Below, one piece after another: positions 58,399 to 61,688 of a DNA stretch of 64,000 nt. The position numbers and the translations under genes were made by a program. Position 1 is the stretch's first letter, and the number at the start of each line of letters is the position of its first letter. The notes beneath the pieces were generated by a model that was given only the letters and a program-made list of their open reading frames with translations, was not told the origin of the DNA and did not search any database. The stretch is taken from the NCBI RefSeq assembly GCF_026125785.1, contig NZ_JAHCKL010000001.1, positions 66,949 through 130,948 on the forward strand, read 5' to 3'. This stretch comes from Hydrogenophaga sp. GTDB lineage: Bacteria; Pseudomonadota; Gammaproteobacteria; Burkholderiales; Burkholderiaceae_C.

Positions 58399-59874
58399 TC
58401 AGGTTCGGCTGAAGTACTCGCGGCGTTCGAAATCGACTTTGTCCTCGGCGGCGGCGTAGCGGTCGATTTCGTGTTGCTTGATGCGGCAGAAGTAGCGCAC
58501 GAAGTCCGCGCCCAGCCCCGCGCACAGGGCGTCGTCGCCCTGCAGCGCGGCCAGGCCCTCGGCCAGCGTGGCGGGGATTTTCTCGCCTTCGCCCGCGTAA
58601 GGCGCTTCGCAGGCGGGCGGTGGCGTCAGCGCCCCTGCCAGCCCATCCAGCCCCGCATGGATCTGCGCGGCCATGTAGAGGTAGGGGTTGGCCGCTGGCT
58701 CGCCCACGCGGTTCTCGATGCGTGTGGCGCTGTCGCCGGCCGCGCCCACCACGCGCAGCATCGCGCCCCGGTTGTCCTGGCCCCACAGCACCGCCTGGGG
58801 CGCGAGCGCGTTGGGCCGGAAGCGGGCGAAGCCGTTGATGGTGGGTGTGCACAGCACCGTCATGGCGCGCGCGTGCGCCAGCAGGCCGGCCAGCCAGTGC
58901 GCGCCGATGTCGGACAGTGTGTGCCGTGCGTCAGCGGGCGTGCTGCCCGGTGCAGGGGCCTCGCGCACGAAGGCGTTGCGACCGCTGGGCGTGTGCACCA
59001 GCGACTGGTGCAGGTGCCAGCCGCTGGACATGATGTGGGGAAACGGCGGGCGGCACATGAAGGTGGCGTGGTAGCCCGCGCGCCGCAGCGCCTGGCGCAC
59101 CGCGTTACGGAACAGCACCATCTGGTCGGCGGCGGTGAGCGCGTCGGTGGCGTCAAACACCGCCTCCACCTGGCTCGGGCCCAACTCGATCTCCAGCGAC
59201 TGCAGCGGCAGGCCCAGGGCCTGGGCGGTGCGCTGCACGATGCGCAGGGGCTCGTCCGCCAGGTCGGACATGGCCTCGGACTGCAGGTTGTAGCCGGGGT
59301 GGATCATCTCCACCGCGGGCGGCAGGCCAGGCCAGGCGGCGAGTTCGGGGTCCAGTTGCGGGCGGGTGTCGGTGATGCGGTAGATGTGAAACTCGACCTC
59401 CAGCCCGGTCTTCATGCCGTGGCCAGTCTGCGCCAGACGGGCCAGGGCATCCTGCAGCACACGGCGCGTGTCCAGCGGCACCGGAGCCCCATGGGCGAAC
59501 CAGGGCTGGCAGCGCAGCCAGCCGGTTCGCACCAGGCCGGGCAGGACGACGAAGCTGCATGGGTCGGGCAGCAGCACCAGATTGGCCGCGCCGGCAAAAC
59601 CTGGCAGGTCCGCCGCGGCGCCGGGTTCGAACACCTTCCAGGCCGTGCGGTCGGCGGTGTCCTTGAGCATCAGCGTGCCCACCATGCCCACGCCGTCGCG
59701 CAGCGCGCGGATGGCCGCTGCGGCGGTGAGGGTCTTGCCGCGCAGCAGACCATGCGTGTCGCACCAGCCAAAGCGCACCAGTTCGGTGCCACTGGCCTCG
59801 ATGTCCCGGGCCAGATCCAGGCAGGCCTGCTCGCGCACGGCGTCGTGCAGGCCGCAGCGTTCGGCAAAAGTCAT
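58399..59874 (-). CDS. Glutamine synthetase-like ligase (PuuA-type)
   Basis: The 491-residue protein keeps the GS active-site blocks: GLEVEFHIY (E-x-E), EIELGPSQVEAVF, SGWHLHQSL (ATP/metal His), the arginine-containing GQDNRGAMLRV and RIENRVGEPAANPYLYMAA. It differs from housekeeping GlnA in the N-terminus and lacks the adenylylation-site context. Such enzymes join glutamate to an amine (gamma-glutamylpolyamine, gamma-glutamylanilide) or ammonia. Its ATG overlaps the stop of the Rieske gene, so the two act together. Confidence 0.9.
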   Translation of the reverse strand: MTFAERCGLHDAVREQACLDLARDIEASGTELVRFGWCDTHGLLRGKTLTAAAAIRALRDGVGMVGTLMLKDTADRTAWKVFEPGAAADLPGFAGAANLVLLPDPCSFVVLPGLVRTGWLRCQPWFAHGAPVPLDTRRVLQDALARLAQTGHGMKTGLEVEFHIYRITDTRPQLDPELAAWPGLPPAVEMIHPGYNLQSEAMSDLADEPLRIVQRTAQALGLPLQSLEIELGPSQVEAVFDATDALTAADQMVLFRNAVRQALRRAGYHATFMCRPPFPHIMSSGWHLHQSLVHTPSGRNAFVREAPAPGSTPADARHTLSDIGAHWLAGLLAHARAMTVLCTPTINGFARFRPNALAPQAVLWGQDNRGAMLRVVGAAGDSATRIENRVGEPAANPYLYMAAQIHAGLDGLAGALTPPPACEAPYAGEGEKIPATLAEGLAALQGDDALCAGLGADFVRYFCRIKQHEIDRYAAAEDKVDFERREYFSRT

Positions 59875-61688
59875 CCAGACACCTCTGTCCTCCCGGCGCC
59901 CACTTCTGTCGGGCTTGAGCCCGGCTTCTTGGGGTCTGAGTCCGTCTCCGCGCTGGCCGGGGCAGTCTCCGCTCGGACGGCGTGCATCTCCGCTCGCCCT
60001 GAGTTCATCTCAGCTCGGACGGAGTTCATCTCCGCTCGCCCTGGGTTCTTCTCCGTTCGCCCTGAGTTCATCTCCGTTCGGACGGAGCTTATCTCCGCTC
60101 GGATGGAGCTCATCTCCGTTCGCCCTGAGCTTGTCGAAGGGTTGGCCTGGACCTGTGGAGGGGCTTCGACAGGCTCAGCCCGAACGGAGGGTACCTCAGC
60201 CCGAACGGGAGGAACCTCAGCCCGAACGGTGGGTGCCTCAGCCCGAACGGGGAATGCCTCAGCTCGGGCGGAGAGTGCCTCAGCCCGGGCGGGAGCTGGC
60301 TCAGTCTGAGTGGGAACCGACTCGGCCCGGGTGAGGGCGTCGCCACCGTACCAGGGCGCGCCCTCTCGCTTGCTGCGCACCGAGTCCTGCCACCAGGCGT
60401 GCCAGTCGCCGGCCGGGGCGATGCCGTCGACCGTGTCCGGTCCCCTTATGGCGTCGAACAGCCCGGGGTCGCCGATGCCGGGCGGCATGCCGCCGTTTTC
60501 CACTGTGTCGATGGCCTGCTGGAGCAGGCGGCGGTTGGCCATGATGACCTTGTCGGTGGTGCCCAGGTGCTCGCGCGTGCGGTCCTGGATGGCGCCCATG
60601 CTTTCGCAGGCCCATTGGTCGTGCACGTTGATGTCGTCCTCACCCATGCCCAGGTAGGTGCGGCTCTGCTGCTCCTCGGGGTTGAAGCCCCAGTGGTTGT
60701 GTTTGCCGGACTTGGGGATGTAGTCGGGCAGGGTCACGGCCTGCAGCCGCTGTTGGCGCATGGCCTCCTTGTCCACCGGGCCGTCGAAGCTGGTGAAGAA
60801 CGCATACCAGTAGTTGCGGGTGTCATCGACCGGCACGTGCATCTGCGTGATGGTCATGGTCTCTGACAAGGGAATCACGAAGGTCTGCGGGAACACCGCG
60901 TTGGTGACGCGCACATGGGTGAGCTCGTCGGTCATCGGCCGCAGCGCGGTGAGCTGCAGGCCATAGGCCTTGGCTTCGAAGGAGATCTGCGGCTGGCCGA
61001 ACTCGCGCATCACCCGGGTCATCGGCCAGCGCTCGCCACCGACCTCGCCCACGCTGGCGCCGCGAAACTGCTTGCCGTAGCTGTCGTCGAGCGAGGCGTC
61101 GTTGAAGAAGCGGTGCAGGTAGGAAGCGTGCGCCGGGTCGATGCCGACCTCGAACGACTGCAGCCAGTTGCAATGCCACAGGCCCTTGAACGCGAAGGTG
61201 TGCGTGGCCGGCGCGGTGAAACAATCCAGCGCTGGCAGAGGTGGCGGCACCGCGCCTTGCGGGCCGAACCAGCCAAACAGCACGCCCGAGCGCTCCTGCA
61301 GAGGGTAGCTGCGCTGGCGGATGCGGGTGCACAAGGTGCTGCCGGGAGGTTCGGCGGGTGTTTCGATGCACTGCCCCGTGGCGTCGAATTTCCAGCCATG
61401 GAAGGGACAGCGCAGGCCATCGCCCTCGTTGCGGCCGTACGCGAGGTCGGCGCCCCGGTGCGGGCAGTCGCGGTCCAGCAGGCCGTAGCCGCCCTGGGCA
61501 TCGCGGAACAGCACGAAGTCCTGGCCCAGCACACGCACCGGTTTGACCGGCCGCACCGCCATGCGCGGGTCCAGCGCAGGGTCGAATTCGTCGAGCAGGG
61601 CCACCGGCTGCCAATAGCGGCGCAGCAGCTCTCCGCCCGGGGTGCCTGGGCCGACCTGGGTCAGGCGCTGGTTGAGTTCGGCTTTCAT
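59871..61688 (-). CDS. Rieske oxygenase with repeat-built C-terminal tail
   Basis: ATG 61688 gives 605 residues. The Rieske 2Fe-2S ligands are C75-x-H77 and C94-x2-H97. The mononuclear iron site is H187, H192 (DPAHASYLH) and probably D357. The catalytic part resembles phthalate 4,5-dioxygenase-type alpha subunits and ends near residue 450. Residues 457-574 are 7-residue repeats of the form xxxVRAE, encoded by exact 21-bp repeats, and look non-catalytic. It heads the operon with the GS-like ligase and ferredoxin and faces the GntR gene. Confidence 0.92.
   Translation of the reverse strand: MKAELNQRLTQVGPGTPGGELLRRYWQPVALLDEFDPALDPRMAVRPVKPVRVLGQDFVLFRDAQGGYGLLDRDCPHRGADLAYGRNEGDGLRCPFHGWKFDATGQCIETPAEPPGSTLCTRIRQRSYPLQERSGVLFGWFGPQGAVPPPLPALDCFTAPATHTFAFKGLWHCNWLQSFEVGIDPAHASYLHRFFNDASLDDSYGKQFRGASVGEVGGERWPMTRVMREFGQPQISFEAKAYGLQLTALRPMTDELTHVRVTNAVFPQTFVIPLSETMTITQMHVPVDDTRNYWYAFFTSFDGPVDKEAMRQQRLQAVTLPDYIPKSGKHNHWGFNPEEQQSRTYLGMGEDDINVHDQWACESMGAIQDRTREHLGTTDKVIMANRRLLQQAIDTVENGGMPPGIGDPGLFDAIRGPDTVDGIAPAGDWHAWWQDSVRSKREGAPWYGGDALTRAESVPTQTEPAPARAEALSARAEAFPVRAEAPTVRAEVPPVRAEVPSVRAEPVEAPPQVQANPSTSSGRTEMSSIRAEISSVRTEMNSGRTEKNPGRAEMNSVRAEMNSGRAEMHAVRAETAPASAETDSDPKKPGSSPTEVGAGRTEVSG
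59967..60134 (-). repeat. Left array: eight 21-bp repeats
   Basis: Eight contiguous units of exactly 21 bp begin CTCCGCTCG or CTCCGTTCG (one CTCAGCTCG) on the plus strand, with alternating GGACGGAG and CCCTGAG middles. The last unit runs into the left REP arm. On the coding strand each encodes a RAE- or RTE-containing heptapeptide. Confidence 0.9.
60126..60186. repeat. Central REP-like hairpin
   Basis: CTGAGCTTGTCGAAGG and CTTCGACAGGCTCAG pair around a 23-base GC-rich loop. The motif (GTTCGCCCTGAGC.../...GGCTCAGCCCGAAC) is a dispersed REP family in Comamonadaceae and relatives. Confidence 0.8.
60174..60320 (-). repeat. Right array: seven 21-bp repeats
   Basis: Seven contiguous units of exactly 21 bp begin CTCAGCCCGAACGG, decaying to CTCAGCTCGGGCGG and CTCAGTCTGAGTGG away from the centre. 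Their orientation mirrors the left array around the central hairpin. Confidence 0.9.

Follow-up and report, generated by a model that had tools for sequence, protein, structure and literature searches.

Tandem copies of REPs have been described as whole REPINs or as REPs spaced at least 72 bp apart in the passages cited here of a study by Bertels and Rainey (2011, PMC3116915). A subsequent study of GTAG/CGTC REPs, as far as it is cited here, described copies lying inside genes, including uvrA, and repeat clusters of Thauera and R. conorii that encode 43–82 amino acids (Di Nocera et al. 2013, PMC3733652); the Rickettsia RPE elements, which that paper cites, also encode peptides. Bacterial tandem repeats with a constant unit length of 20–21 nt were reported separately and called enigmatic (Subirana and Messeguer 2021, PMC8161180), and BrickBuilt, a MITE of Porphyromonas gingivalis, was reported to contain an internal 23-nt minisatellite (PMC4596501). 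The locus described below brings these elements together, as tandem 21-bp units flank a REPIN inside an enzyme gene of Hydrogenophaga.

The locus lies in a 64,000-nt stretch of genomic DNA from a Hydrogenophaga species, i.e., the window. The product of the gene in question matches both PF00355 (Rieske, E = 5.9e-18) and PF19301 (LigXa_C, E = 8.5e-22) in Pfam, i.e., it combines a Rieske 2Fe–2S domain with a LigXa_C-like catalytic domain. The conserved enzyme part stops at an APW motif (residue 446), after which the tail follows in the order YGGD, 8 heptads, the REPIN-encoded peptide VEAPPQVQANPSTSSGRTE, 11 heptads and VSG-stop (Table 1). The centre of this tail is encoded by a pair of short inverted REPs, which form a hairpin as in a REPIN. 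The calculated DNA fold of this hairpin (60114–60189) has an energy of −26.1 kcal/mol (z = −3.2), which none of 200 shuffled sequences equalled, whereas the folds of the single REPs are weak (−4.0 and −2.7 kcal/mol, z = −0.75 and −0.28) and no better than those of shuffled sequences. A search of Rfam gave no match at E values up to 0.1 within 59800–60500.

Table 1. Features of the Rieske locus in the window and of the REP arrays found inside other genes of the source genome
Feature	Coordinates	Strand	Basis or remark
Rieske / LigXa-type oxygenase gene, 605 aa	59871..61688	-	residues 1–446 conserved enzyme, 447–605 REP-derived tail
159-residue tail C-terminal to the conserved APW motif	59874..60350	-	orthologue comparison; coordinates by hand
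8 heptads before the REPIN, ALTRAES to PSVRAEP, the last being the REP's own	60171..60338	-	coordinates by hand
11 heptads after the REPIN (7 clear, 4 degenerate), up to VSG-stop	59883..60113	-	coordinates by hand
REPIN hairpin, two inverted REPs with 24-nt loop	60114..60189	.	fold; loop comparison
REP, GGG type, TTCGACAAGCTCAGGGCGAACG	60117..60138	-	pattern search of genome
REP, CCC type, TTCGACAGGCTCAGCCCGAACG	60165..60186	+	pattern search of genome
Left array, 8 half-site units 21 bp apart, away from the hairpin	59969..60129	-	downstream in gene
Right array, 7 half-site units 21 bp apart, away from the hairpin	60174..60313	+	upstream in gene
ATGA, Rieske stop overlapping the start of the glutamine-synthetase-family gene	59871..59874	-	
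Glutamine-synthetase-family gene (Gln-synt_C), probably translationally coupled to the Rieske gene	58399..59874	-	Pfam
PurL array			between AIRS_C and PurM_N-like domain; open frame
Biotin carboxylase array			after the best CPSase_L_D2 stretch, before Biotin_carb_C; open frame
UvrA-type protein array			open frame
Molybdopterin dehydrogenase array			between MoCoBD_1 and MoCoBD_2; open frame

The original prediction, which was made from the letters of the window, had described mirrored arrays of eight and seven 21-bp units that face away from a REP hairpin and form the end of the Rieske gene, and this description was confirmed at a threshold of at most 3 mismatches per half-site, with the REP's own half-site included in each count. 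The identity at a lag of 21 is 0.78 on the left and on the right, compared with 0.49 as the best value elsewhere in the window (outside 59700–60330), and in 2000 Markov resamples of each array the observed identity was never reached at any lag from 10 to 49. About 17 heptapeptides had been predicted; the arrays stand, and the heptad register continues past the clear units to give 8 + 11 heptads over a stretch of about 59871–60338, four of the 11 downstream heptads being too degenerate to count as units. The decay with distance from the hairpin is clear in the right array (0, 0, 0, 0, 2, 2 and 3 mismatches per unit going outward) but uneven in the left array (0, 3, 1, 0, 2, 3, 1 and 3). The opposite strand had also been called open, which holds for one plus-strand frame only, with two of the six frames free of stops.

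How this tail arose can be approached through the same site in related species. The Rieske orthologues, with 74–89% identity, come from 29 further loci of a genus search and 80 loci of a named collection, the species of which overlap heavily, such that many species are present twice among the 110 orthologue rows and 53 distinct sequences entered the tree. A full REPIN is present in four of these 53 (the window, G029, G022 and G055), apparent remnants, called by peptide pattern, are present in four, and neither is found in 45. The tail measures 11–24 residues in those 45 sequences and 7–25 residues over all REP-free rows. Excluding the REP's own heptad, the numbers of heptads before and after the REPIN are 1/0 in G022, 2/1 in G029, 2/3 in G055 and 7/11 in the window, so that the lengths downstream differ by whole heptads. 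All four carriers finish with V(T/A/S)G-stop at ATGA, and this downstream end of the tail is the sole fixed anchor; the linker from APW to the first heptad varies in length.

The REPIN inserted in this gene carries a 24-nt loop that is shared by the four species, with a similarity of 0.75–0.92 among their Rieske loci, whereas 21 other loops of the source genome reach at most 0.62 and 23 other loops of G029 at most 0.71 when compared with the Rieske loop of the window or of G029. We read this pattern as one old REPIN insertion in the Rieske gene, followed by loss and by independent growth. In the Rieske gene tree, however, the carriers sit on several branches, species with the REPIN, with a remnant and without any REP are mixed, and the deep support is weak; with the carriers scattered in this way, loss or transfer must be assumed. 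The short tails of the REP-free orthologues and the three congeners with a REPIN and 0–3 extra heptads per side bear out the earlier proposal that the arrays expanded in frame from the REP, and the length of 159 residues, against 7–25 in REP-free orthologues, agrees with its view that a REP has probably created a new C-terminal tail. An equal tail in distant genera, which had been named as the case that would speak against this view, is absent from every row titled Limnohabitans or Polaromonas.

The gene downstream offers a reason why the tail may have remained open. Over the 110 rows, the Rieske genes end in ATGA (92), GTGA (11), CTGA (4) or TTGA (3), and among the 18 rows examined in full, 16 allow the glutamine-synthetase-family gene to start 4 bases upstream of the end of the Rieske gene; the two exceptions are L034, with the start at −1, and L164, for which the frame was not found. 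All four REPIN-bearing species have GAGTG or GAGGTG, identified by eye, shortly upstream of the ATG of the next gene, which looks like a ribosome-binding site. The tail is presumably translated, and a frameshift or an early stop in it would cause translation to end before the ATGA overlap is reached. Translational coupling to the glutamine-synthetase-family gene probably holds the Rieske tail in frame, and we infer that the same coupling keeps its units at 21 bp.

The Rieske arrays are one case among many in the source genome (4.17 Mb, 46 contigs, 93.8% complete). The REP pattern TTCGACARGCTCAGNNCGAACG, with at most 2 mismatches allowed, matches 114 times in this genome (reversed control: 1) and 97 times in G029 (control: 0), i.e., the element has the many dispersed genomic copies typical of a REPIN. 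Among 109 distinct REP contexts examined in the source genome (identical contexts counted once), tandem structure at a lag identity of at least 0.65 lies outward of the GAACGG end in 33 and on the inner side in one; the original prediction had suggested looking for similar arrays beside other REPs, and they were found in this census, which took REPs whatever the spacing, whereas the loci L200–L209 had first been found via a 21-bp pattern. With looser cut-offs the outward and inward counts are 36 vs. 6 at 0.60 and 41 vs. 10 at 0.55, and the polarity is therefore less sharp. The inner side of a paired REP contains the loop and the partner, so the count was repeated leaving out REPs with an inner REP within 150 nt, which gave 17/44 outward and 1/44 inward at 0.65, and 20 and 3 at 0.60. 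The sign and binomial tests take REPs as independent, while some of the REPs sit in repeated clusters. In G029, which is assembled in 3 contigs, the corresponding values are 5/97 and 0/97, or 2/32 and 0/32 without inner partners, showing that the arrays are not an oddity of one draft genome.

Arrays with at least 3 units (34) were compared further. A full REP stands at the start of 31 of them, the spacing is constant in 21 and not constant in 13, and the mismatches to the REP core, counted over recognised units only, rise going outward in 29, fall in one and are flat in four; the mean identity also falls outward, but this value combines decay with the contribution of arrays that stop short of the position concerned. 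The array periods range from 14 to 24 bp, mainly 14 and 19–24, and 21 is the commonest; a spacing of 20 or 21 separates neighbouring units in 76 of 131 cases, a proportion that includes loci chosen by a 21-bp pattern. The units thus have the form of tandem 20–21-nt repeats with a short conserved core and a variable remainder. The spacer was rejected as a part of the REP, since the bases after GAACGG show a bias of at most 0.37 bit in G029 REPs without arrays, and by sequence comparison it is mostly local flank. Beyond these two genomes, 12 of 66 Hydrogenophaga genomes contain a 21-bp three-unit pattern (at most 2 mismatches), and an exact REP with an outward unit is present in 4 of 399 sampled genomes of the order, two of them outside the genus; these two, G388 and G090 (L312, L316, L320; L313, L317), have a few such REPs and belong to another genus of the family and to another family of the order. 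Two other arrangements were also observed. One REPIN (L020:1015–1154; G000 C42:45605) has two periods, a near-perfect 14-bp array on one side, with the unit ACCAGGGCGAACGG and 10 units including the REP's own, and a 21-bp array on the other. At L015, L016, L019, L221 and L023 (G000 C18, C23, C43), whole REPINs lie head to tail every ~125–265 bp, most of these REPINs having some flanking array.

The point at which the arrays begin was examined base by base in 38 arrays of two genomes, with positions given relative to CTCAG. At offsets −2 to +14, the first unit equals the REP in 29–38 of the 38 arrays per position, whereas further in, at offsets −3 to −9, the match is found in 4, 1, 10, 16, 1, 4 and 0 arrays, respectively; the arrays were picked by identity from CTCAG outward, so that only the negative offsets are independent of this choice. 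The inner boundary is therefore nearly fixed across arrays of differing period, and the outer boundary is variable; a few arrays begin 2 bases later (L014, L020). The two bases preceding CTCAG are repeated at the unit junction in 24 of the 38 arrays, compared with an expected proportion of 0.137 taken from flanks without arrays (p = 3e-12).

Six arrays lie in recognised genes, i.e., two in the Rieske gene and one each in genes for PurL, a biotin carboxylase, a UvrA-type protein and a molybdopterin dehydrogenase. All six have a period of 21, against 11 of the 27 other arrays (p = 0.011), and all six have a period that is a multiple of three, against 13 of 27 (p = 0.024); this frame test is small, as a single genome contributed all six arrays, which occupy five genes, and the assignment to genes relied on Pfam, open frames and codon usage. 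The L201 frame contains a second array (residues 152–171, before the first Pfam domain), which was counted outside genes. Another frame (L010:377–2050; G000 C1:147376) joins a GIY-YIG domain, a 21-bp REP array and MeaB without interruption, and its codon usage is coding-like on both sides of the array. It was not accepted as an in-gene case and was likewise counted outside genes, MeaB being without the GIY-YIG part in the matches of relatives; if it were counted in-gene, multiples of three would stand at 7/7 vs. 12/26 (p = 0.012).

The PurL site was compared in 16 relatives, none of which has an array of this REP. The loop is short in fourteen of them, contains one REP, read as PSTGSGR, in G029 and carries another kind of repetitive insert in G035, the nature of which was judged by eye; relative to G012, the source genome has about 43 additional residues in this loop. 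Depending on the genome, this loop (L208:1283–1348; relatives L343, L344) thus holds a REP array, a single REP peptide or another repeat, and may be a preferred site for repeats to insert in frame.

The best explanation of the Rieske arrays, in which we place nearly but not quite half of our confidence, is REPIN insertion followed by replication stalling and outward slippage. A REPIN would have entered the variable C-terminal linker of the Rieske gene before several Hydrogenophaga species diverged from their common ancestor. Replication would then stall repeatedly, on both sides, at about the same point in the REP (TTCGACA|RGCTCAG), owing to DNA structure or to a bound protein, and slip backwards onto a short matching sequence of the flank, initially over about 21 nt and in later rounds over one whole unit, so that the stretch is copied again. 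Every such event would put a new unit beside the REP and shift the older units outward, leading to mirrored arrays that decay outward. The same process would operate at this REP family across the genome with periods of 14–24 bp, and within a gene an added unit would persist only if the frame is kept, for which the Rieske gene would have an extra reason, as a frameshift would uncouple the translation of the next gene. Stalling with slippage to a two-base match would account for the fixed inner and variable outer boundary, the direction, the gradient and the mostly constant period, the last because later slips would use a whole unit. The paired hairpin is not a requirement, since 17 of the 33 arrays begin at REPs without an inner partner. 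Such REPs carry arrays as often as paired REPs or more often (17/44 vs. 16/65), which lowers the probability of a stall and raises that of a nick; together with the weak fold of the single REP, these partnerless starts mean that the cause of the stall could be a structure, a bound protein or a nick.

A nick is the main rival, i.e., a Y1 transposase or another REP-binding nuclease would cut site-specifically near RG/CTCAG and repair would recopy the adjacent 14–24 nt. The near-identical inner boundary over 38 arrays and the dispensable partner REP would suit an enzyme site, and a Y1_Tnp match (Pfam) is present in 57 of 66 Hydrogenophaga genomes, one in each of 55 and two in each of 2 (59 matches). 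However, none of the 30 Y1_Tnp loci inspected, out of these 59, has a REP of this type nearby (at most 3 mismatches, about 1.5 kb per side or less), while 29 of them have another repeat, similar to AAATGGGGTCAGA (at most 2 mismatches, no chance control), and a nick does not require the two-base match at the junction; we regard this rival as possible but rather doubtful. The search for a RAYT partner of this REP, which had been suggested together with the original prediction, was negative in all 30 inspected loci, and a RAYT was rejected as the driver of the arrays; the REPs may be mobilised by a distant or lost gene. Separately, most Hydrogenophaga genomes have one Y1 transposase gene, and AAATGGGGTCAGA-like repeats lie at 29 of the 30 loci inspected (L199, L227–L255), which may point to a RAYT-like partnership with a repeat family other than the present one. 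Turning to the tail itself, the roughly 19 heptads that are in frame and free of stops, with a recurrent R(A/T)E motif, could suggest a functional protein repeat under selection, with the resemblance to the REP being secondary. However, pN/pS between adjacent units of the Rieske arrays is 0.54–0.71, and for comparison, 21-bp arrays lying outside recognised genes supplied 36 frames without stops (frames within one array not being independent), in which it has a median of 0.82 and ranges from 0.15 to 2.45. No selection on the residues of the heptads is therefore demonstrated, similar units also occur outside genes and in unrelated proteins, and 45 of the 53 distinct orthologues have neither the REPIN nor a remnant, making this reading improbable. 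Insertion of REPs preferentially at one end of pre-existing 21-bp arrays might be considered because bacterial 20–21-nt tandem repeats have been described without mention of REPs in the part of PMC8161180 cited here. This order of events is still less probable, as 31 of 34 arrays start at a full REP, the unit cores are REP sequence with locus-specific spacers, the comparable relatives have no array of this REP at the PurL site (0/16) and the G022 REPIN has one extra unit only. The source genome is in 46 contigs, and an assembly artefact might thus be suspected, but the units are not identical and the 3-contig genome G029 has like arrays, one of them in its Rieske gene, which leaves this the least credible of the explanations.

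REPs, REPs inside genes and 20–21-nt satellites are each already known, although they are treated separately in the papers cited here, and a REP as the one-sided seed of such satellites was not found among published descriptions. A literature search, to which subscription journals were mostly inaccessible, found no paper containing the REP core strings and, in titles and abstracts, no description of satellites growing out of REPs. It is conceivable, although we consider it less probable than the mechanism proposed for the Rieske arrays, that REPs act as directional satellite nurseries which add units outward, singly and from a near-fixed point, that at least some of the unexplained bacterial 20–21-nt repeats originate from them, and that they provide a recurrent route to in-frame peptide segments in enzymes, including PurL. 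One known element looks like the seed of another, given the near-fixed start, the direction and the intermediate states at one site in relatives, and Hydrogenophaga thereby allows tests of how a class of bacterial satellite DNA originates. The arrays may also represent a way for enzymes, e.g., PurL, biotin carboxylase and the UvrA-type protein, to gain growing peptide inserts.

Compared with the known systems, the elements described here resemble the REPINs of PMC3116915, in the passages cited, in being short inverted doublets with a long hairpin, many copies and compensatory arms (GGG/CCC or CCC/GGG). They differ from the tandems described there in that the outer half of the REP with about 7 bp of flank is multiplied, in an outward direction, and in that a REP-linked RAYT was not found in the 30 inspected Y1_Tnp loci. 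As in the cited part of PMC3733652, REPs lie inside genes, those of the UvrA type included. The GTAG/CGTC signature was, however, not found in the 78 array-free REPs of G029 (46 and 32), which end in GAACGG and have neither tetranucleotide in the conserved part (by eye), and the clusters described in that part are repeats rather than satellites growing from one REP. The repeats of PMC8161180 share with the present arrays an equal unit length, a short conserved core, a variable and species-specific sequence and a mostly non-coding position, and in the text cited REPs are not mentioned and the strings "palindrom" and "hairpin" are absent. BrickBuilt, as described in the part of PMC4596501 cited, likewise ties a minisatellite of similar unit length, with repeats that strains have acquired or lost, to a small inverted-repeat element; however, its repeats lie inside the element, whereas those of Hydrogenophaga lie outside and consist of half the element with local flank.
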